A DNA stretch of 48,147 nucleotides, from positions 1 through 48,147 of the forward strand of contig JANWYJ010000035.1 in NCBI GenBank assembly GCA_025055115.1. Direction: 5' to 3'. Positions 21,262 through 48,142 of the stretch are shown piece by piece. Made by a program: the position numbers and the translations under genes. This DNA is from Gemmata sp. (lineage in GTDB: Bacteria; Planctomycetota; Planctomycetia; Gemmatales; Gemmataceae). How positions within the stretch are numbered: position 1 is the stretch's first letter; each line of letters begins with the position of its first letter. The notes beneath the pieces were generated by a model. The model was not told the origin of the DNA and ran no database searches. It worked only from the letters and a program-made list of their open reading frames with translations.

Positions 21262-21340
21262 GCGGAGCAGCCTCCAACTGCATCTTGCACAAATCATAGC
21301 CTTCGGGTAATCACTCCCGTCCCCAATTGTGAGGATCGCG

Positions 21341-22843
21341 ATGCCGCTTCTCGAAGTAGAAGGGCTGGTCAAATATTACGGCCGCCGAGCCGTCGTTAAC
21401 GGCGTGTCGTTCAACGTCCATGCCGGAGAAATCGTCGGCTTATTAGGACCCAACGGGGCCGGGAAAACGACCAGCTTCCGCATGACCACCGGGCAGATCA
21501 CTCCCAACGATGGCCGGGTTCTCTTCAACGGCGAAGATGTTACAACGTTGCCGATGTACTTGCGGGCACGTCGGGGTATGGGTTATTTGTCGCAAGAGCC
21601 GAGCGTGTTTCGCAAGTTGACTGTCGAGGGCAATCTGCTAGCGATCCTGGAAGCCCTGCCACGCAGCCGCAAACTCGGCCGCCGACTCACCAAAGCCGAA
21701 CGCTGGCAGCGAACGAACGAAGTGCTAGCCCGCTTCAAGTTGGAGCATGTCCGCAAGAATATCGCTGGCCGTTGTTCCGGAGGTGAGAAACGCCGCTTAG
21801 AAATTGCCCGTTGTCTGGTTTGTGAGCCGCTTTTGATTCTGCTCGACGAACCCTTTGCCGCTGTTGACCCCAAAACCACCGAAGACATCCGCGAGAACAT
21901 CCGCGAACTGGCCAACTCGGGGATTGGCATTCTGATCACCGATCACAACGTTCGCGAGGTCTTTCGCACGGCCGATCGGGTCTATTTGATCACGGAAGGC
22001 AAAGTGGTCACCCATGGAACACCGCTTGAGCTGGTCAACGACCAAGTGGCAATTGATGCCTATCTAGGTCGCAGTTTTGAAGAAGACGGCTTTACGCGGC
22101 ACTTCGATGCCCGCTTTGCGGCAGCACAGCGAGCCACTGCTGCGGGTTCAACCGTCAGAACAGCTCCTGCCCCAGCAACGGTTGCACCCAGGGCCACCGC
22201 CGCAACGGCCGCCAATGCTCCGACCTCTCCTGCGGTGGAAGTGCCCACGTCCATTCCCGCGCCGCCGGCCCCACCCGCAACAGCCCCGGCCCCGTCCACG
22301 GTATCCGCAACGCCCAGCGTCCCGTCTGCTCCAGAACCGCGGCCTACGACCGGTTCTGCCGTCAATCCGGTTGTGACAAAGGCTTCTGCCCAGCCACCCC
22401 AAGCCGAGAATCTGCCGCCCGGCTCGGTCCTGACTGCACCCGAGACCCTCAGCGAACCCACTTGGCCGCCGTCGAAGCCCGTCGCGAACAGTGAAGCGCG
22501 CGCCGTTGATACTCCCACACCACCCCCAGCGACCATTCCCAATCGGGGCGCACTGCATGCGATTTTGGAACTGGAAAAACTTCGCCGGGCTGTGGAAAAT
22601 CTCACCAACGACCACGCAGTGAAGGCTTCGGCTTTGGAAATTGTCGCCCGGGGCGCTGCAGCCATTCCGGTTTTACTCGAAGCCATGGAACGCCGCGATG
22701 CTCTTCTCCGGCAACGAGCCTTCGAGATGCTCAAATTGGTCGCCAAGGAACACGCCCCATTCGATTACGACCCCAACGCGACCATGGACATCGTCTTGCG
22801 GCAAGTGGCCTACCTCCGTGTGCGCCTGGAACACCGCCGCTAG
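21341..22843 (+). CDS. lptB: LPS-export ATP-binding protein LptB with a C-terminal extension
   Basis: The first ~250 of 500 residues are a full LptB-type ABC ATPase: Walker A GPNGAGKT (36-43), Q-loop YLSQEPSVF, signature CSGGEKRR (145-152), Walker B LLILLDEP, and switch His202 (ITDHNVRE). It would power LPS transport from inner to outer membrane with LptFGC, which are not in the window. Normal LptB is about 240 residues. Here a Pro/Ala/Thr-rich linker (about 265-400) leads to a helical HEAT-like domain (about 405-500, SALEIVARGAAAIPVLLEAM). The ATG at 21341 follows GAGG. A role other than LPS for this ATPase is possible, but the core is closest to LptB. Confidence 0.88.
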   Translation: MPLLEVEGLVKYYGRRAVVNGVSFNVHAGEIVGLLGPNGAGKTTSFRMTTGQITPNDGRVLFNGEDVTTLPMYLRARRGMGYLSQEPSVFRKLTVEGNLLAILEALPRSRKLGRRLTKAERWQRTNEVLARFKLEHVRKNIAGRCSGGEKRRLEIARCLVCEPLLILLDEPFAAVDPKTTEDIRENIRELANSGIGILITDHNVREVFRTADRVYLITEGKVVTHGTPLELVNDQVAIDAYLGRSFEEDGFTRHFDARFAAAQRATAAGSTVRTAPAPATVAPRATAATAANAPTSPAVEVPTSIPAPPAPPATAPAPSTVSATPSVPSAPEPRPTTGSAVNPVVTKASAQPPQAENLPPGSVLTAPETLSEPTWPPSKPVANSEARAVDTPTPPPATIPNRGALHAILELEKLRRAVENLTNDHAVKASALEIVARGAAAIPVLLEAMERRDALLRQRAFEMLKLVAKEHAPFDYDPNATMDIVLRQVAYLRVRLEHRR

Positions 22844-23411: not shown

Positions 23412-23888
23412 ATGGCTACCACACACGAATTGGCGGAACAACTTCTGGCTGGTGCCGCTCAACTTCGCCAGGCCGTCGCGGGAATGACCCGTGAGCAACT
23501 CCTGGCTCGGCCCATCCCAGGACGCTGGAGCACGCTCGAAGTCGTCTGCCACATCGCCGACTTCGACCCCATTCTCGTAGAACGGATGAAACGGATTATC
23601 GCGATGGGGCCGGACACACCGTTATTGCTAGCAGCCGATGAAAACGCCTTCGTCGCGCAGTTGAAATATCACGACCGCGATCTCGAAGAAGAACTTGCCC
23701 TCATCGAGCTGACGCGGCGACAAATGGCTCGCATCATTCGCCAACTAACTCCTGAACAGTTACAACTCACTGGCAATCACAGCAAAAAAGGATTGCAAAC
23801 ACTCGAAAAAGTGATTCAAACGGCGATCAACCATATCCCACACCATGTGCCGTTTATCGCAGAGAAGCGGAAAGCCTTGGGCGTCTGA
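23412..23888 (+). CDS. DinB-family (DinB_2) protein
   Basis: The 158-residue four-helix-bundle protein carries the DinB-superfamily metal triad: His47 (VVCHIADFD), His141 and His145 (INHIPHH). The RWSTLEVVCHIADFD and TLEKVIQTAINHIPHHV segments are typical. Members include bacillithiol- and mycothiol-dependent transferases and uncharacterised stress proteins, so the reaction cannot be assigned. AAGGAG lies 11 bases before the ATG. The last bases and the stop codon are duplicated downstream. Confidence 0.88.
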   Translation: MATTHELAEQLLAGAAQLRQAVAGMTREQLLARPIPGRWSTLEVVCHIADFDPILVERMKRIIAMGPDTPLLLAADENAFVAQLKYHDRDLEEELALIELTRRQMARIIRQLTPEQLQLTGNHSKKGLQTLEKVIQTAINHIPHHVPFIAEKRKALGV

Positions 23889-23924
23889 TCCTTCCCGCAA
23901 GCTTGGGCGTGTGATTCGTGCCGC
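23872..23924. repeat. Imperfect 27-bp tandem duplication spanning the DinB stop codon
   Basis: Copy 1 (23872-23898) covers the last codons and TGA of the DinB gene; copy 2 (23899-23924) follows directly with one deleted base and about four substitutions (AAGCCTTGGGCGTCTGAT against AAGCTTGGGCGTGTGAT). Confidence 0.85.
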
Positions 23925-23971
23925 AAGGGTGTGGTGATGAACGAGTATTCGACGTCACCCCGGCAGCCGCT

Positions 23972-24155
23972 GAGACGCAGGTTCGTTCGGGTACTCTACG
24001 TCAGCCTGGTCGCCCCTGAGACGCAGGTTCGTTCGGGTACTCCCCATTACTGGCTTATCGGGTCATCAGCCCCATGCGCTTCGTTCGATCAGAGATGCAG
24101 GTTCGTTTGGGTACTCTACGTCAGCCTGGTTGGCCTCGAGATGCAGGTTCGTTGG
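23972..24155. repeat. Four-copy spacer repeat array
   Basis: A 39-base unit (GAGA(C/T)GCAGGTTCGTT(C/T)GG then GTACTCTACGTCAGCCTGGT) occurs complete at 23972-24010 and 24092-24130 and truncated at 24018-24042 and 24138-24155. Long-short-long-short order suggests an ancestral two-unit block that was itself duplicated. Confidence 0.93.
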
Positions 24156-24283
24156 CTGCTGTGATAACCCTAGTAACCCCAGCCAGTCGCGATTCACCGC
24201 GGGGGGGAACAGCGCAGGCGACAGCAAGAAACCACGATGGCCGATGCCAACCATCCCATCGTGATTTACCGGAGAGGTGAACC

Positions 24284-24486
24284 GTGCCTCGGGTTCCCGA
24301 TCGTTGGGGCTGGCTGGCCGCTCATCGACTTGAAGCTGGTAGCTCATCGGCTTGAATCCAAAACCGCGACCCTCGCCGACCGAAACGGTGTTCTCATCGA
24401 CTTGAAGCTGGTAGCTCATCGGCTTGAATCTGTTGCCATACGACACGTCGCGTGCCTAGGGTTCCCGATCTTTGGGACTGGCTGGC
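24284..24486. repeat. Nested duplication overlapping the end of the ATPase gene
   Basis: A 35-base outer pair (24284-24318 and 24452-24486, three mismatches) includes the last codons and stop of the minus-strand ATPase-HflK gene. Inside lies a perfect 38-base pair at 24321-24358 and 24393-24430 (CTCATCGACTTGAAGCTGGT core), each made of two near-identical CTCATCG(A/G)CTTGAA half units. Confidence 0.93.
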
Positions 24487-27400
24487 AGGGATGGGAGCCG
24501 CAGGAGGTCGGGTTCCATGAGGAACAGATGCCGCCGGCCGGGGATGTCGGTAGTGTCGATCAGCACTTTATCTCGGCCACGGAGGACATCGACGAGGGTT
24601 TGGTAGGTCAAACGGATTTCGATAATCGCGCGCCGCTCGGCGAGGATTTTTTCGCGGCGGGTGGCCAAGTCGCGGTCCACGTTGGCTGCATCCTCGCCCG
24701 CGCGGATGCGACTGTCGCGTTCAGCGGCCAGGATTTTCTCTTCCGCCGCGGTGAGCTTGTGTCGAACCGCCGACCATGCCAGAAACGCGTCGCGATCGGC
24801 ACGAGCGGCTTCCAACTTGGCGTGAGCTTCGGCCAGAGCTTGATTTTTCACTCGCCGTTCCTCTTCTTCGGCACGGCGGATAATCCGCGTGGCATCGGCA
24901 GTGGCTTCGTTGATCATCCGGTCGCGTTCTTGAATCGCTTTGGCGACGGAGTGATACGCATCGACAACTTCCGGCGGTGGGTGCAGATCATGCAACGTGA
25001 AGCTATCGAGCGTTACCCCCAAGCCCTCAGGGGCTACCTCGCCAAGCCGCTGTTGCAATCGACGCAGGGCCAGATGCTCCAACTCCACCCGGCGCAAGGT
25101 GAGTAGCTCCAGAAATCGATGGCTCGCCACCAATTCGCGTAAAACCGATTCCGCGCTCGAACGCACCAGGGCTTCGGGGTTGCTGCTGGCGAGGAGGAAT
25201 TGCCGGGGTTGCGTCGTTCGATAACGAACCGTGGCCAACACCACAACCAAATCACCATCTCCAGTGATCATGACGGCTTCATCGGTCAGAGGAGTGATTT
25301 CGTTACCGTGGGGGCTGGCCCACCAATTCCCCGTCGTTGGCCCCTTGGGGCTACCGGCGACATAGCGGAAGCCAATCTCCAGTGTGCGGACTTCACCTGG
25401 TCGAATGCGGGTGATGGTTTCGATGGGCCACGGCCAGCGCAGGTGGAGGCCGGCTTCCAAATCGGCTTCGACAGCGCCAAAACGGCGAACGATACCGACT
25501 TCCCCCGTCTCGATCAGGGTCCAGCTGGTTCCTAACCAGCTCAAGGTGACCACAGCCGCAGCCACGGCACCGACGGTTCGCCACCGGTGTGTCAGTTCAT
25601 GAAGAACGTCATTGATCGAAAACCGCTCCAGCCACTCTTCGAGCTGTTGGGCCGCCGATTTGACACGTGCGAATGTGCGGTGCGAGCCGATACGCTCGAA
25701 AGCCAGTAAGCGCAGGGAATTCAACAGCACTGCCAGAGATGCGAATTGATGATAGATGACGCCCACCAATGGCGCTGATTCGTACCAATCCGGCGCTGTC
25801 GCAACAAGCGGCCACAGCCAACCGGTCAGCAGCACGCCCACAAGATTGACGGCGAAGGCAAAGATGAGGATGTTTTGGCGAATAATACGCACCGTTTCGC
25901 GTGCCAGGCGCACCAACAACGGCAGTGGTTTGAGCGGTTCGCCCATCAGCACAATGTCGCCGGCTTCCGCGGCAATGTCGGTGCCACGACCGCCGCCAAT
26001 AGCGATGCCCACGCCAGCCCGGGCTAACGCTGGCGCGTCGTTGATGCCATCGCCCACAAACGCCACATAAGAACCGGTGGTCGCGGTTTTCTCACTCTGG
26101 GCAGCGATCCATTCCGCTTTTTGAACCGGAGTCAGTTCGGCGTGAAATTCGGTCACTGGCAGCTGTTCGGCCACGGCGCTGGCTGCGGCAGTGCGGTCGC
26201 CGGTCAGCAACGCGAGGGGGGCGATGCCCAACGCGCGCAAGTCGGCCAGTACGGCAGCCGCTTCCGCCCGCAGAGTGTCGCGCGCACCTATCACCCCCAG
26301 AACCTGACTGTTGCGTGCGACCAGCAAGGCTGTTTGCCCCGTGGTATCGAGCTGTTCGAGGGCCGCCAGTGCTTCGGGAGGAATCCACAGACCGTGTTCT
26401 TCAAGGAATCGACGTGTTCCGACCACGATCGTCGAACCACCGGCCTTGGCCGTGATGCCAGCGCCGGGGTGGGCTTGGAATTCTTCGACCCCCGGGAGAG
26501 AGCCATTCCTTTCCATCGCCTGCTGCACCAAGAGCCGGGCGATGGGGTGTTCGCTGCGTTGCTCGGCGGTCGCCGCAGTGATCAGTAGTTCATCGCTGTT
26601 GCCCTGGAGGGGAATAACATCGCCCAGTTGTAATCGGCCTTCGGTCAGAGTACCAGTTTTGTCGAAAGCAAAGGCTGTGGTGTGGGCGAGGCGTTCGAGG
26701 GCTGAGCCACCTTTGATCAGAACCCCGGTGCCAGCTAACCGGCCCAGGGCGGCGATCACCGCCGCCGGTGTGGCCAAAATCAGCGCACAGGGGCAGGCGA
26801 CGACCAATACGGCCAACGCGGGGTAGGCGGCCACCTTCGCCGCAGCGCGAAATGTTGGGGGGGGAAAACCTGGCGGGGGAGTCCCCGAAAGTTGATAAGC
26901 GACGTTACCCGCAAAGGTCAGCAACGCCAGGGCCAAGACCACCGGCAGGAAGTAGCGGGCGAGTTTGTCGGCATAGCGTTCGAGGGGGGCTTTGTCCTTG
27001 AGGGCCTGCGCGGTCAGTTCGATCACCTGACCGGCGACGGTTTCTTTGGCCACTTTTTGGGCTTCGATCGTCAAGGCCCCATGCTGCACGATGGAGCCAG
27101 CCAGAATGGTATCGCCGGGGCCTTTATCCACGGGCAGGCTTTCCCCCGTCAGGGCGCTGGTATCCACAGCCGAGCGGCCCTCTAACACCACGCCATCGAC
27201 CGGCACACGGCCCCCGGGCTTGACCACCACCTTATCACCCACAATGACATCTGCGGTGAAGGTGCGAACCTCGACCCCATCCCGGAGAACCCAACAGCGT
27301 TTCGGGAATAACTCCGCCAACTGACCCAACGCCCGCTGTGTCCGCGCAAAAGTGTAGGCTTCCAAAGATTCGCCGACCAAACCGATGAAGACCACTTCCG

Positions 27401-27728
27401 CCGCCACAACGGGTTCCTTCATCAGAATGGCGGCCAATGCGGCAATCGCTAGCGCCAGATCGGCGCCGATGCGTCCCTCAAAGAGCGATTCGAGTGACGT
27501 GTACAGTACGCGCGCGCCACCCAGGATGGCCGCGAGCAGGGCGTAGCGGAAGCCACGAATCTCGCGGGGCCACGAGACGGTTTCCATCCCTTGCGCGCTC
27601 AGCCAGTTCGCTACCACCGGCCACAAATCGGCCGCCAACAACACCCCGATGATGGCGGTGAACACATACAACCCCAACGGCGATTCTGACCGGAAGGGGT
27701 CATCAACAGTCCGAATCTCCCGATGCAT
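24456..27728 (-). CDS. P1B-type metal ATPase fused to an HflK-like SPFH protein
   Basis: In this 1090-residue protein residues 1-680 are a heavy-metal P-type ATPase: actuator TGES (194-197), metal-site CPC (312-314), phosphorylation DKTGT (Asp356), SEHP (His394) and hinge GDGINDAP (559-566). No N-terminal HMA domain or Cys-rich metal tail is present. The last membrane segment reads HQFASLAVLLNSLRLL, unlike the usual copper (MxxSS), zinc (DxG) or cobalt (HEGGT) signatures. Residues about 700-1080 resemble HflK: one membrane helix (719-736), SPFH region (TGEVGIVRRFG, EAVMITGDGDLVVVLATVRY, DPE-like NPEALVRSSAESVLREL) and a long helix rich in Glu/Arg/Ala. HflK normally forms a cage around FtsH with HflC; no hflC is adjacent. 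There is no stop or frame change between the halves. Confidence 0.9.
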   Translation of the reverse strand: MHREIRTVDDPFRSESPLGLYVFTAIIGVLLAADLWPVVANWLSAQGMETVSWPREIRGFRYALLAAILGGARVLYTSLESLFEGRIGADLALAIAALAAILMKEPVVAAEVVFIGLVGESLEAYTFARTQRALGQLAELFPKRCWVLRDGVEVRTFTADVIVGDKVVVKPGGRVPVDGVVLEGRSAVDTSALTGESLPVDKGPGDTILAGSIVQHGALTIEAQKVAKETVAGQVIELTAQALKDKAPLERYADKLARYFLPVVLALALLTFAGNVAYQLSGTPPPGFPPPTFRAAAKVAAYPALAVLVVACPCALILATPAAVIAALGRLAGTGVLIKGGSALERLAHTTAFAFDKTGTLTEGRLQLGDVIPLQGNSDELLITAATAEQRSEHPIARLLVQQAMERNGSLPGVEEFQAHPGAGITAKAGGSTIVVGTRRFLEEHGLWIPPEALAALEQLDTTGQTALLVARNSQVLGVIGARDTLRAEAAAVLADLRALGIAPLALLTGDRTAAASAVAEQLPVTEFHAELTPVQKAEWIAAQSEKTATTGSYVAFVGDGINDAPALARAGVGIAIGGGRGTDIAAEAGDIVLMGEPLKPLPLLVRLARETVRIIRQNILIFAFAVNLVGVLLTGWLWPLVATAPDWYESAPLVGVIYHQFASLAVLLNSLRLLAFERIGSHRTFARVKSAAQQLEEWLERFSINDVLHELTHRWRTVGAVAAAVVTLSWLGTSWTLIETGEVGIVRRFGAVEADLEAGLHLRWPWPIETITRIRPGEVRTLEIGFRYVAGSPKGPTTGNWWASPHGNEITPLTDEAVMITGDGDLVVVLATVRYRTTQPRQFLLASSNPEALVRSSAESVLRELVASHRFLELLTLRRVELEHLALRRLQQRLGEVAPEGLGVTLDSFTLHDLHPPPEVVDAYHSVAKAIQERDRMINEATADATRIIRRAEEEERRVKNQALAEAHAKLEAARADRDAFLAWSAVRHKLTAAEEKILAAERDSRIRAGEDAANVDRDLATRREKILAERRAIIEIRLTYQTLVDVLRGRDKVLIDTTDIPGRRHLFLMEPDLLRLPSLPASPKDREP

Positions 27729-27848
27729 ACTGCCATCTTACAGGTTGTGGCCGTGAGAGCAGGTGAGGATTCTGTGTGAACAAACGAAGTTGGCATCCGG
27801 CGGTTTTCGTAAATCGAACAAGAGGAATAGTTGTGTTGTGAGGAACGC

Positions 27849-29108
27849 ATGCTCCGGGTGTTGCAAGCCACTACCTTCCGCTCCCTGCGGCACCGGCATT
27901 ATCGGCGCTACTTTACCGGACAAATTGTCTCGTTTGTCGGCACCTGGATGCAGTCGGCGGCGCTGATGTGGCTGATGTACGACCGTACGCACGATCCGCG
28001 CTGGCCGTCGTGGTTGATCGTTGCCCAGATTGGGCCGACGATTCTTTTGGGTCCGTGGGGTGGGGCTTTGGCCGATCGCAACCCCAAACGGCAGTTGGTT
28101 TTCACCACACAATCTGCGTTTCTGCTCAACGCCATCGCCCTCACCGCGGTTGTCGCGACCGGTTTGGCGCTGCCCGCAGTGGTGTTGGTGTTGGTGGCGA
28201 TCAACGGGGTGATTCAAGCGGTCGATTTGCCAGCGCGGCTAGCCTTTGTCCCCGATTTGGTTCCCAAGGAAGACCTGATCAATGCTGTGGGGTTGAATTC
28301 CTTGGTGTTCAATGGGGCACGGATGCTCGGTCCGGCGCTGGCGGGCGTGTGCTTCATCCTGGCCAACGCCGCGCAACCGTGGCTTCCGGCGGATGCGAAC
28401 CCGGTCACCGTTGGCGCCACGGCTTGTTTCGCGGCCAATGCCCTGAGCTTTGTGGCGGTGTTGCGCGCGTTGTGGGGTATTCCCGAACCGCCTCAGCATG
28501 ACCCGACCCAGCGCGGCTCGATGTGGGATGGCTTCCGCTATTTGCGTGGCCATCCGGCGTTGGGGGGATTGGTCGGTTTAACCTTCTTTGTCTGCATCTT
28601 TGGCTGGCCAGTGATTAGCGTGTTGCCGGCCTACACCCGGCTGCGGCTAGGATTGAAGGAAGACGCTTACAGTTTGCTTCTGAGTGCTTTGGGAGCCGGC
28701 GCCTTGCTGGCGGCATTGGCAACGGCCACATTCGGCAATGTGCGGCGGCGAACGACATTTCTCCTGTTGGGCGTCGTGTGTACCGCGTTAGCGCTATTCG
28801 GCTTAGGTGTAGCGGCCGACGCTCTGAGCGCCGGCGTGTGTTGTACCGCGACAGGGTTTGGCCTTATTCTTTATCTCTCGACGGGTCAATCGGTTCTGCA
28901 GCTGGCGGTGCCCGATGCGATGCGCGGCCGGGTGATGGCCTGGTGGGCGATGACGCTCAGTGCCAGCGCGCCGTTGGGGCATTTGCTCGTAGGCCAGATG
29001 ATTGCCACACTCAACGAAGTGGGTTGGGTCCTGTGGGGAATGGCGGCCGGGGTCGCAACGGCTGCGACGGGCTTGGCTGTTCTGTTAGCCCTCCGCAAGC
29101 CCTCATAA
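27849..29108 (+). CDS. MFS transporter, EntS/MFS_3-like exporter
   Basis: The 419-residue membrane protein has about 12 hydrophobic segments. N-terminal FRSLRHRHYRRYFTGQIVSFVGTWMQSAAL and the loop GGALADRNPKRQLV are typical of the MFS_3 (enterobactin-exporter-like) group, as is DLPARLAFVPDLVPKEDLINAVGLNSLVFNGARMLGP, which is abbreviated here as DLPARLAFVPDLV with later NARMLGP-like residues. The substrate is unknown. The ATG at 27849 follows TGAGGAACGC; an upstream TTG in frame is less likely. It diverges from the ATPase-HflK gene with about 120 bases between starts, so the two may share a control region. Confidence 0.85.
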   Translation: MLRVLQATTFRSLRHRHYRRYFTGQIVSFVGTWMQSAALMWLMYDRTHDPRWPSWLIVAQIGPTILLGPWGGALADRNPKRQLVFTTQSAFLLNAIALTAVVATGLALPAVVLVLVAINGVIQAVDLPARLAFVPDLVPKEDLINAVGLNSLVFNGARMLGPALAGVCFILANAAQPWLPADANPVTVGATACFAANALSFVAVLRALWGIPEPPQHDPTQRGSMWDGFRYLRGHPALGGLVGLTFFVCIFGWPVISVLPAYTRLRLGLKEDAYSLLLSALGAGALLAALATATFGNVRRRTTFLLLGVVCTALALFGLGVAADALSAGVCCTATGFGLILYLSTGQSVLQLAVPDAMRGRVMAWWAMTLSASAPLGHLLVGQMIATLNEVGWVLWGMAAGVATAATGLAVLLALRKPS

Positions 29109-38182: not shown

Positions 38183-42082
<3,900 letters not shown>

Positions 42083-45041: not shown

Positions 45042-45065
45042 AGCTTGTGAAGTTTGTCACAAGCT
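45042..45065 (+). terminator. Hairpin after the class IV aminotransferase
   Basis: AGCTTGTGA (45042-45050) pairs exactly with TCACAAGCT (45057-45065) around a six-base loop, 16 bases after the stop codon. No T-run follows, so it may be an attenuator or 3' stabiliser. Confidence 0.5.
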
Positions 45066-45178
45066 ACGTGGTTATTCCAACCGGCCGGGCGTGTGGGGAG
45101 TTCGACCTCTCCGAACCCCACGTTTGGCCCCCGGTTGGCAGGTTACTGAAGGTTTGTAGACACGCTCAGGATTGCCCC

Positions 45179-48142
45179 ATGTCTCTCTCACGCTCTCGCT
45201 GGCAACGACTTCGTTTTCCCTGGTGGCTTGCGCTGGTGTGTGTGTTGCCGTTGGGCTTGCTGGGTGCGGCTCCGACGCATTCCCTGAGTCTGTTGGGCGA
45301 TAGTTGGCAGCCATTCGGCTTCATCACCTCAAGCGCCTATGGCATCGGTGAAAAGCTGGGTTTGCTGGCGTGCCTTCTCGTAGCTATTGGTGGCCTGGGG
45401 TATGCCGGTTGGCTGATGAAGCAGGTTTACGCCGCCGATACCGGGACCGCGGCGATGCAAAAAGTGGCCGATGCGGTGCGCCAGGGGGCCAATGCGTATT
45501 TGTATCGGCAATTCTCGGTGGTCATCATTTTTGTTCTGGTTTTGTCGTTCGTGATTGGGGCGGTGAAATGGCCGGATGATTCCAGCCCGGGTATTCACTC
45601 GGCCAGTGAACTGAAGACGGTGGCCCTCGGGCGGGCCTTGGCGTTCTTCATGGGGGCTGCGTTTTCGGCGGCGGTGGGTTTCACCGGCATGCGCTTGGCC
45701 ACGGCCGGCAACCTGCGGGTCGCCGCGGCGGCGCGGGCAGCGCGAAGCGACTTTCGCGAAAACTTCGGCGATGCCATGCGCATGGCCTACCGCACCGGGA
45801 CGATCACCGGGATGTTCACCTGTGGATTGGGCCTTTTGGGCGGAGTGCTCATTTTGTTGGTTTTTGGCGAATTAGCCTATGAAATTTTGATCGGTTATGG
45901 TTTCGGCGGCTCGCTGTTGGCGTTGTTCATGCGGGTCGGGGGGGGGATTTACACCAAAGCTGCGGATGTCGGGGCGGACTTGGTCGGCAAAGTGGAAGCC
46001 AACGTGCCCGAAGACGACCCCCGCAATGCCGCGACCATCGCCGATAACGTGGGGGATAATGTCGGCGATTGTGCCGGCATGGCCGCCGACGTGTTTGAGA
46101 GCTACTCGGTCACGATGGTGGCCGCGGTCATGCTCGGTTACGCGGCCTTTGGCTATAAGGGGATGATTTTCCCCCTTTTGGTTCAAGCCGTGGGGGTGGT
46201 GGCCAGCATTCTCAGTACGGCCCTGGTGGGTCGGGGTATCACGATCGGCGATAGTGCCATCGCCATGCACAGCATCAACCGCGGTTTCTGGCGCAGTGCG
46301 GTCATCAGCACCTTGGGTTTCATGTTTTTGGGCTTGATCTACCTTCAGTTTGATGAAGCCTACATTGTCGAACGGGGCATCGACCGCGGGATGTATGCGG
46401 AACTGTACGATAACCGCGACATTCGCACGCAACTGCAACTTCCGGCTCCCCCCAACGAAGCTCGTCTGGCCGAATTGGTGCAACAACTGCGGCGGAAGCG
46501 CAGTGGTCCTGAACGCAATGCCGAAAGTACCTTGACGCTGGAAGCGGAAGTGGATCGTTACCGCGCCGTGGCCTTGGCGGCATGGCGACAATTGGATGAA
46601 GCGAAAAAGAAAGAACTGGCCAACACCAAGGTGAAGCTGGCTCATAGCGATGACGAGCATCTGCGGGAATTGGTGAGCGAGTTACGCAACCGGGGCCTGC
46701 CCCAAGATGGCGACAACCGCGGCTATGCCACGCTACTGCAACTGGCGCAATTCCGCTATCACGTTCCCCTGCGCAATGGCACGAATCTGGCGGTCGCCTG
46801 GTGCTGCTTGCTGGGCATTCTGTTGGCCGTAGCCTTAAACAAATGCACAGAGTATTGGACGAGTACGGAATACAGCCCGGTCAAGGAAGTGGTCCGCTCC
46901 AGCAGCACCGGCCATGCAACCAACATCATCTCCGGCTTGGCGTTGGGGCTGGAAAGTTCCGTGTGGGCGGTACTGATCATCTCCGCGGCCATTTTGGGGG
47001 CTGTTTTGGTTTGCGGCGATACCGATAATTTGCTCTTCATCGCCTTCGGAGTGGCTATGGTGGGCATCGGCATGCTTACGCTGACCGGCGACACGATCAG
47101 CATGGACGTGTTCGGCCCCATCGCCGACAACGCCAATGGCATCGGGGAGATGGGTTACAACCGCCGTGTCGATGGCAGCCCGTTGCGTGAAGGTGAACCA
47201 GAATTCCTCAGCGACACCGAAAACAAAGCGGCGCGGCAAATTCTGGCCGACCTCGACGCCGTTGGTAACACCACCAAAGCCATCACCAAAGGCATCGCTA
47301 TCGGTTCGGCCGTGATTGCGGCCGTTTCCCTGTTTGCCAGTTTTATTGCCGTTTTGGTCACCGGCTCGGAAGAGAAAATCGGTCAGTTGCTCATCGGTGA
47401 TTTCACGGCTGGAGCAGCCCGGCTGACCGTGGCCGAACCACTGGTGTTCATTGGTATGCTTATTGGCGGGGCGGTACCGTTTCTTTTCAGCAGCATGACC
47501 ATCCGTGCCGTCGGTCGGGCGGCCTATCTGATTGTCTTTGAGTGCCGCAAGCAATTCCGCAACCCGGACATCATGTCGGGCAAGATACCGCCCGACTACA
47601 GTACAGTGGTCCGTATTTGCACGGGCAGCGCCCAACGGGAGTTGATCGGCCCTGGTTTCTTGGCGATCGGCACCCCCTTGGTTGTGGGCTTCCTCTTGGG
47701 GCCGTTTGCCTTGGGGGGCTTTCTGGCGGGCATGATTCTCAGCGGGCAATTGTTGGCGGTCTTTATGTCGAACGCGGGGGGTTCGTGGGATAATGCGAAA
47801 AAGATGATCGAAGACGAACCCAAAGATCCTATCCGCAACACCGGCAAAGGGAGCGAGAAACACAAAGCCGCGGTCACCGGCGACACCGTGGGCGACCCCC
47901 TCAAAGATACCAGCGGCCCAGCCATCAACCCGCTCATCAAGGTGATGAACATGGTGAGTTTGCTGGCTTTGCCGCTGGTCATTCTCCACAACGTCAAAGA
48001 CGGAATGGGCAACACCCTCATGGGGGGAGGAATAGCCGCCGTCGCTGCACTGGCTGTACTTTACGCATGGTGGCAATCGAAAAAGGAACCGGCCGAACTC
48101 AGTGCGATGGACCAAACGCCACCGCCTACCGAAAGTCCCTGA
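45179..48142 (+). CDS. hppA: Membrane-bound proton-translocating pyrophosphatase, expanded
   Basis: The 987-residue integral membrane enzyme couples pyrophosphate hydrolysis to ion pumping. Active-site segments are intact: AADVGADLVGKVEANVPEDD, DNVGDNVGDCAGMAADVFES, and the C-terminal DNAKKMIED and GDTVGDPLKDTSGPAINPLI regions. Lys700 in GNTTKAITKG marks the potassium-independent, proton-pumping subfamily (potassium-dependent enzymes have Ala). Family members are usually 660-800 residues. Here a soluble, charged, helical insert of about 130 residues (about 398-528) interrupts two membrane segments, and an extra hydrophobic N-terminus (14-32) precedes the family start. The ATG at 45179 is used; an earlier ATG at 45047 lies in hairpin sequence. 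The stop lies five bases from the window edge. Confidence 0.96.
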   Translation: MSLSRSRWQRLRFPWWLALVCVLPLGLLGAAPTHSLSLLGDSWQPFGFITSSAYGIGEKLGLLACLLVAIGGLGYAGWLMKQVYAADTGTAAMQKVADAVRQGANAYLYRQFSVVIIFVLVLSFVIGAVKWPDDSSPGIHSASELKTVALGRALAFFMGAAFSAAVGFTGMRLATAGNLRVAAAARAARSDFRENFGDAMRMAYRTGTITGMFTCGLGLLGGVLILLVFGELAYEILIGYGFGGSLLALFMRVGGGIYTKAADVGADLVGKVEANVPEDDPRNAATIADNVGDNVGDCAGMAADVFESYSVTMVAAVMLGYAAFGYKGMIFPLLVQAVGVVASILSTALVGRGITIGDSAIAMHSINRGFWRSAVISTLGFMFLGLIYLQFDEAYIVERGIDRGMYAELYDNRDIRTQLQLPAPPNEARLAELVQQLRRKRSGPERNAESTLTLEAEVDRYRAVALAAWRQLDEAKKKELANTKVKLAHSDDEHLRELVSELRNRGLPQDGDNRGYATLLQLAQFRYHVPLRNGTNLAVAWCCLLGILLAVALNKCTEYWTSTEYSPVKEVVRSSSTGHATNIISGLALGLESSVWAVLIISAAILGAVLVCGDTDNLLFIAFGVAMVGIGMLTLTGDTISMDVFGPIADNANGIGEMGYNRRVDGSPLREGEPEFLSDTENKAARQILADLDAVGNTTKAITKGIAIGSAVIAAVSLFASFIAVLVTGSEEKIGQLLIGDFTAGAARLTVAEPLVFIGMLIGGAVPFLFSSMTIRAVGRAAYLIVFECRKQFRNPDIMSGKIPPDYSTVVRICTGSAQRELIGPGFLAIGTPLVVGFLLGPFALGGFLAGMILSGQLLAVFMSNAGGSWDNAKKMIEDEPKDPIRNTGKGSEKHKAAVTGDTVGDPLKDTSGPAINPLIKVMNMVSLLALPLVILHNVKDGMGNTLMGGGIAAVAALAVLYAWWQSKKEPAELSAMDQTPPPTESP

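Follow-up and report, generated by a model that had tools for sequence, protein, structure and literature searches.

What does a membrane scaffold protein do at the end of a metal pump? This question is raised by one gene in a stretch of 48,147 nucleotides from Gemmata sp. (Planctomycetota; assembly GCA_025055115.1, contig JANWYJ010000035.1, positions 1 to 48,147), which we call the window. On its minus strand, at 24456..27728, a single open reading frame (ORF) of 1090 amino acids plus stop joins a P1B-type ATPase, a ninth transmembrane (TM) helix and an HflK-like SPFH domain. A sequence-only reading of the window had described this fusion and seen in it a scaffold that carries a pump. This remains the best reading, but it is incomplete, since the system contains three SPFH proteins, the fused one lies outside canonical HflK, and other exporters take the place of the ATPase elsewhere. 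We consider it probable that the protein acts as subunit A in an HflK/HflC-like assembly built from three SPFH components (A, B and C) and bearing transition-metal exporters. At the level of sequence we show the fusion in A, its conservation, the A-B-C gene order of many relatives and the exchange of exporters.

The uninterrupted frame described by the sequence-only reading is borne out: the 1090 codons contain no internal stop, and plus-strand frame 1 of the same stretch has many. All parts lie on the minus strand. The ATPase comprises residues 1-678 (25695..27728), with two helices ahead of the ATPase core, and is recognized by NCBIfam TIGR01525, the heavy-metal P-type ATPase family (1e-161; 539.7 bits against a cut-off of 346.25), by its motifs and by Foldseek. 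The catalytic motifs are TGES (194-197), DKTGT (356-360), SEHP (392-395) and GDGINDAP (559-566). A linker and the ninth TM helix follow at residues 679-735 (25524..25694; helix 716-733 in the AlphaFold model), then the SPFH (Band 7) domain at 736-918 (24975..25523), which closes with an HPP motif at 916-918 that is invariant in 64/64 aligned fused proteins. The remainder, residues 919-1090 (24459..24974), is a long helical region with a C-terminal tail (model helices 919-990, 994-1009 and 1014-1049), in which KVLID...HLFLMEPDLL looks by eye like KVLV...LMVLPLDQML, a stretch in the C-terminal part of HflK from E. coli. Pfam places E1-E2_ATPase at 140-332 (1e-52), Hydrolase at 351-572 (6.7e-27) and Band_7 (PF01145) at 739-946 (2.4e-20; 73.8 bits against a gathering cut-off of 23.6), all above their cut-offs, so that the protein belongs to the SPFH/Band 7 family, and a complete P1B ATPase and an HflK-like domain indeed share one frame. 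The SPFH homology on which the sequence-only reading depended was thus found, in the Band_7 match and in the HflK fold matches given below. A Pfam search of the fused ORF found no HMA domain. The N-terminus reads MHRE in 61/64 fused proteins, the start codons having been picked with this string in view, and no promoter-like site was found in window positions 24300-28000.

The fused gene is widely conserved. Among 41 genomes, the window's own and 40 relatives, it is present in 33 (G000-G006, G008-G032, G036). Two of the 33, G020 and G026, show no more than the ATPase part, next to the end of a contig. In a third, G015, a metagenome-assembled genome (MAG) that is 68% complete, the gene is broken into two frames of 844 and 576 amino acids. 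The homologue in G017 is 88% identical and open over residues 1-1090, and 27 further genomes encode the two halves as a single open frame of roughly 1,000 codons or longer. A missed stop between 25600 and 25700, which the sequence-only reading had named as its own weak point, is therefore very unlikely. We also scanned named genomes with a query that begins at the last ATPase helix and includes everything C-terminal of it. Of 154 confirmed candidates 80 loci were retained, mostly from Gemmataceae, Isosphaeraceae and other Planctomycetota, plus one Armatimonadetes MAG (L168). The fused ORF is carried by 74 of the 80; the remaining six comprise four copies that are cut or split (L097, L103, L137, L149) and two plain HflK-HflC pairs (L169 and L173, labelled Thermotogae). 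The named-assembly loci yielded 64 fused ORFs that are open over 1030 codons or more and lie off contig edges, some of which are the same records as in the 41-genome survey. The survey over Planctomycetota that had been called for thus finds the fusion conserved there, over family, order and class. In a sample of the phylum, the profile finds 186/392 genomes at 1e-10, and many of these have plain or otherwise extended SPFH proteins; among the matches listed, G000, G032, G409, G252 and G197 have the fused P1B form. In the second phylum, that of L168, whose name Armatimonadetes is taken from the label of L168 alone, 42 of 201 genomes (L168's own included) match at 1e-10. The match spans the last ATPase helix in 12 of the 201, and a thirteenth (G432) is also fused. 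Since the fusion is found in other genomes of this phylum, it is no contaminant of a single MAG, and the named-genome scan together with the second phylum rules out a single-genus oddity. One further locus, L117, is labelled Bacteroidales, and its A, C and ATPase cluster with Gemmataceae in trees; it is probably misbinned.

The metal site sets the ATPase apart. The CPC motif at residues 312-314 (26787..26795) is present in 70/70 sequences of the P1B-fused form (type I), window included. In the last TM helix of the ATPase, residues 660-664 (25737..25751) form an HQxxS motif, of which H660, Q661 and S664 are invariant in 64/64 aligned fused proteins; in the second phylum HQ stands in 12/13 and HE in one (L282). 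Where the fused protein has this His, E. coli ZntA carries Asp and CopA carries Met. P1B-1 copper ATPases carry Met-x-x-Ser-Ser in the last TM helix, and P1B-2 ATPases have a Lys in the helix preceding it. In the fused protein HQFAS replaces MALSS, and the P1B-1 copper family TIGR01511 scores 377.7 bits, below its cut-off of 397. The P1B-2 enzymes ZntA and CadA are marked by CPC together with Asp in the last TM helix (PMC10800456). The fused ATPase keeps CPC but has His for Asp and Asn for Lys when compared with E. coli ZntA; nonetheless, it exceeds the cut-off of the 'cadmium family' TIGR01512 (402.3 against 313.5 bits). The motifs of P1B-4 are SPC and HEGGT(x5)N (PMC10800456), and here the His at the equal position of the last TM helix is all that agrees, with CPC instead of SPC and HQ instead of HEGG. 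P1B-4-like relatives with SPC and HEGST do occur (L246, L294). As judged from these motifs, the combination of CPC and HQxxS lies outside all three P1B classes compared (P1B-1, P1B-2 and P1B-4). The protein thus shares the full P1B core and CPC with ZntA (4umw) and CopA but differs in its His-Gln-x-x-Ser, its clade, its C-terminal SPFH part and the lack of a detectable HMA domain. In a P1B tree, all 22 fused rows (of 70 type I rows) and all 17 rows adjacent to SPFH gene trios fall into two clades (support 98 and 100) that are separate from CopA and from the relatives of ZntA and CadA; the truncated L196 and L197 were excluded. The substrate is predicted to be a soft or divalent transition metal, most likely of the Zn2+ class, and Cu+ is possible.

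Structure models support both halves. The full-length AlphaFold model (pLDDT, the predicted local distance difference test, 81.7; pTM, the predicted template modelling score, 0.58) has as its top Foldseek match the zinc-transporting PIB ATPase 4umw, and the best 50 rows hold P-type ATPases alone. Because of this, the SPFH part was modelled separately (pLDDT 84.9, pTM 0.54), and its best matches are the HflK chains of E. coli HflK/C structures, with 9cz2_XA on top in Foldseek (1.4e-17). VIA-align superimposes the SPFH model on 7vhq_E with Z 17.4 over 240 aligned residues (root mean square deviation 11.6) and on 9cz2_XA with Z 16.5 over 277 (12.2), pairing model residues 14-365 with HflK 79-355. 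As these deviations are near 12, we claim the likeness segment by segment only. In the model, about 40 residues link the last ATPase helix to TM9. HflK/C stands in the periplasm (PMC2636767, PMC12048511). Eight TM helices of the ATPase followed by TM9 would place the SPFH part there as well; TM9 is predicted to carry the chain across, and we infer that the SPFH part lies outside.

The fused gene often does not stand alone. In many loci two further SPFH genes come after it on the same strand, first the HflC-like B and then the HflK-like C. Where at least 2.6 kb of DNA lie downstream of A (62 loci), 40 loci have at least two further SPFH matches that start within 4.5 kb on the same strand; 39 of them have two matches, and L124 has three, from split frames. 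Most loci leave hardly any space between the genes, and a few, such as L125 and L172, have gaps of 1.8-2.8 kb. In the second phylum A, B and C stand in order at 12/13 loci, and L289 is without a nearby C. A Band 7 search of the window's genome gave five matches, of which three are A, B and C. On contig C66, B (72224-73234) and C (73279-74223) are neighbours. With 137.4 against 134.4, B exceeds the cut-off of hflC, and C is below that of hflK (121.7 against 159.4). The sequence-only reading had asked after a separate hflC, and a separate hflC-like gene, B, does exist. Over the 41 genomes, B is found in 31/33 with A and in 3/8 without it (Fisher p 1.4e-3), and C in 32/33 and 2/8 (Fisher p 4e-5), where the relatives are not independent and the eight genomes without A are mostly more distant ones.

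Further, the ATPase is not the only exporter found on this scaffold. Long-frame HflK-like matches were chosen by frame length and not by their neighbours; most long frames among the matches listed were taken in, and those left out include G089:C362 (667 amino acids) and G156:C653 (463). L088 is a cation diffusion facilitator (CDF) transporter fused to SPFH (Cation_efflux 3.8e-33), in which both the CDF family TIGR01297 and hflK exceed their cut-offs. A second CDF-SPFH protein, found in the second phylum, is L294 (1.4e-8, above cut-off), where a separate P1B ATPase with SPC and HEGST follows the trio. An ArsP_1-type permease is found on A at 13 loci (L089, L090, L091, L174, L175, L177-L181, L193, L194, L202), nine called by Pfam and four (L090, L179, L180, L194) by a local profile only. 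The two put to NCBIfam, L089 and L174, passed the cut-off of the SO_0444 Cu/Zn efflux family. B and C adjoin all 13/13 of these ArsP_1/SO_0444-type A genes. Against the hflK cut-off of 159.4, L088 (186.4) and L089 (159.6) pass and L174 (145.4) fails. SO_0444 permeases and CDF transporters are, like the fused ATPase, metal exporters and sit on a similar SPFH-A in other Planctomycetota, but they are unrelated to P1B ATPases and are not otherwise known as SPFH fusions. Three unrelated exporter families on one scaffold require separate joining events, by fusion or by swap. Zn2+ is the likeliest common metal because of the established substrate range of ZntA-like, CDF and SO_0444 exporters.

At 24 loci (L092, L093, L182-L192, L195-L201, L203-L206) A is of yet another form, type IV. 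All three SPFH genes are in view at 21 of the 24, the exceptions being L199, L200 and L201, the latter two of which reach the contig end. An unfused P1B gene adjoins 19 of the 21 complete type IV trios, 17 times after C and twice upstream (L204, L205), and it is present at 4/4 CDF or type IV trios examined in the second phylum (L292-L295). An ArsP_1 permease additionally lies upstream in L092, L184 and L185. Wherever Pfam can name the fused part of an A protein, it is a metal-exporter family: P1B, CDF or ArsP_1. The type IV A proteins (L092, L182-L206) have an N-terminal multi-helix membrane extension of about 270 amino acids, which received no Pfam name in the 14 put to Pfam and nothing significant in a profile search of the PDB. 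Four profile sets of these extensions match one another by hhalign. One of them, e4, matches CDF (E 7.6e-8 global and 5.1e-6 local, probability 92 and 86) and sets e1 to e3 do not, which is only a hint of a CDF origin.

Is A simply a substitute for canonical HflK? In the phylum sample, 25 canonical hflK-hflC loci (7.9-16 kb) hold exactly two SPFH genes each, K then C, and 0/25 have a P1B, ArsP or CDF match. Conversely, 0/20 unfused P1B loci (7.6-13 kb) have an SPFH match. The profiles used for these controls were local, that for CDF was a single-sequence query, and the 20 P1B loci were the higher-scoring unfused matches of the 41-genome survey; a lower-scoring one, G034:C1:6764002, adjoins B- and C-like matches, as in type IV. 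G096 has both a canonical pair (L057) and a trio (L175), which suggests that the two systems do separate jobs. The exporter-free two-gene loci and G096 rule out A as a plain substitute. A quick SPFH tree was built from 99 rows, with 76/175 rows excluded for size and with support from the Shimodaira-Hasegawa-like approximate likelihood ratio test (SH-aLRT) only. In this tree, 14/16 'plain' rows, among them E. coli HflK, form one clade together with L176 (95); the other two (L207, L208) lie among C and are the B-C pairs from G409 and G252, genomes that have A at another place. Type I A forms a clade of 16/18 rows with the window included (98), permease-fused A one of 9/10 (99) and type IV A one of 14/14 (88). 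The window's SPFH-A lies outside the canonical HflK clade, and SPFH-C likewise. The backbone is without resolution, so that how often fusion took place cannot be read from this tree. The L176 protein (L176:5180-7498, minus strand), which groups with canonical HflK, has about 450 residues without a Pfam name ahead of its SPFH part; a third SPFH gene was not found within 11 kb.

How could such an assembly work? The ATPase would pump a soft or divalent transition metal from the cytoplasm to the periplasm. TM9 would cross the membrane, so that the SPFH domain and the long helix would stand in the periplasm, where A, B and C could co-assemble into a ring or dome like that of HflK/C. HflK and HflC alternate in a 24-subunit periplasmic chamber (PMC12048511). 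The exporters might then be clustered at the base of such a chamber or inside it, and the chamber would receive the expelled metal and either limit its re-entry or hand it on. The His-rich stretches that some A, B and C proteins contain might collect metal. The human stomatin dome, which holds aquaporin-1 or UT-B (PMC12407830), is a precedent for the principle proposed here, in which an SPFH ring lies around membrane transporters. We infer that the exporters are enclosed beneath a periplasmic dome. In other respects the cases differ, since the stomatin dome faces the cytoplasm, holds its cargo non-covalently, is human and carries cargo other than metal exporters. The comparison with the E. coli HflK/HflC-FtsH complex (9cz2, 7vhq, 7wi3) is likewise mixed. 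The alignment to HflK 79-355, the HPP motif, the HflC-like partner gene in many relatives and a compatible topology with the N-terminus in and SPFH outside are alike; the N-terminal P1B ATPase, the third SPFH gene C and the position outside the canonical HflK clade are not, and E. coli HflK has no transporter part. The full proposal is a 'metal-efflux dome': a hetero-oligomeric A-B-C cage would be covalently loaded with interchangeable exporters, metal would be pumped into a periplasmic compartment closed by the cage, and the ATPase would represent a P1B subclass with CPC and HQxxS. We put this forward tentatively, as a reading that may well turn out otherwise.

Several observations weigh against the assembly or its proposed working. 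In the window's own genome A is unlinked from B and C, which lie on another contig. Among the 62 loci with room downstream, 17 are without a downstream SPFH match, at least nine of them from the window's own genus, and 5 have one only. L199 has A and B and no C, and L190 and L198 are complete type IV trios with no P1B gene in the DNA examined. The fused ORF scores below the cut-off of the hflK family TIGR01933 (1.2e-33; 116.7 bits against 159.4). The pTM values of 0.58 and 0.54 make the relative placement of domains in the models unreliable, and a metal-site combination that matches no compared P1B class makes the substrate a guess. The His-rich stretches (at least 9 His in 30 residues) occur in 11/139 trio SPFH ORFs and in 0/50 canonical ones, but 7 of the 11 are exporter-bearing A proteins, so that the evidence is weak; B and C alone give 4/92 (L083, L186, L204, L206) against 0/50, which is not significant (p 0.17). 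In three of the SPFH-B/C proteins the His-rich stretch is an N-terminal tail (L083:6490-7911 and L204:5114-6583, both on the minus strand, and L206:8305-9528 on the plus strand).

That His-rich stretches in B and C are too rare to prove a role in metal handling fits another explanation, in which the SPFH part just clusters or stabilizes pumps in a lipid microdomain and there is neither a chamber nor a metal-specific role of B and C. SPFH proteins are known to organize membranes, and the stomatin dome with its aquaporin-1 or UT-B (PMC12407830) also speaks for this explanation. However, every fused part that Pfam can name is a metal exporter, a selectivity that would not be expected from clustering alone, and we give generic scaffolding a small chance.

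Quality control of the pump, which the sequence-only reading had offered, is an unlikely alternative in our view, and the tests made here gave no support to a link with FtsH or turnover. Here, the SPFH part would bring the pump to FtsH, and its abundance or damage would be handled by proteolysis. E. coli HflK/C surrounds FtsH hexamers (PMC12048511), and the sequence-only reading had suggested to look for a separate ftsH. An FtsH above the family cut-off is indeed present in the window's genome, but it matches in all 14 control genomes as well, so that its presence says little. The HflK residue Arg191, which is reported to contact FtsH (PMC12048511), is Ala in the RefSeq sequence compared, so that this contact speaks neither for nor against the link. 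SPFH-A and SPFH-C lie outside the canonical HflK clade, the coexistence of pair and trio in G096 also speaks against this role, and degradation alone does not account for metal exporters of unrelated families on one scaffold.

The one-to-one fusion and the short linker of the model would also suit a regulatory ATPase subunit similar to KdpC or a beta-subunit, acting on single pumps and forming no large oligomers. This is very unlikely, since the model retains the long helix and the C-terminal part that align with chains of the 24-subunit HflK assembly and two more SPFH subunits are encoded alongside in many relatives. An artefact by frameshift, misassembly or chance fusion, for which nothing in the window speaks and in favor of which only the relative G015 with its two frames can be named, is practically negligible, as the same open fused frame recurs in many assemblies of two phyla and the conserved open frames of relatives and named assemblies rule out frameshift and misassembly.

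Around the gene, the window holds further features. Direct repeats at 23876-24486 adjoin the fused gene on its 3' side. For example, 38 nucleotides occur twice, at 24321 and 24393, and 36-nucleotide repeats at 24283 and 24451 are 92% alike, the last copy overlapping the final codons of the fused ORF. Downstream and convergent lies a gene for a DinB_2 family protein (23412-23888, plus strand), and the near relative G017 has a 158-amino-acid gene at the corresponding place. An ABC ATPase at 21329-22843 (plus strand) resembles LptB by eye and has a long Pro/Ala-rich C-terminal extension. SecA (38183-42082, plus strand; 1299 amino acids) and a protein of the H+-pyrophosphatase family (45047-48142, plus strand; 1031 amino acids) are both longer than the usual forms.

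Among the papers listed, we found no published description of HflK or SPFH fused to a P-type ATPase or a transporter in a search by title and the start of the abstract, with subscription papers mostly outside its scope, and the word ATPase is absent from the main text of a 2009 survey of prokaryotic SPFH proteins (PMC2636767). Database annotations may already label such proteins. What the window contains is thus part of a real and widely conserved system that is undescribed as far as the literature was searched. The role of SPFH cages for membrane transporters is largely open. In the present system, a subunit of the cage type and its cargo form one protein, and the cargoes come from three or more unrelated families that belong to a single functional class. 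The gene itself therefore tells which cargo is carried and how it is oriented, so that a role of such cages in enclosing or organizing transporters can be tested directly. The system would also add a role in metal homeostasis to the HflK/C-like proteins and supply a P1B metal site outside the classes compared.

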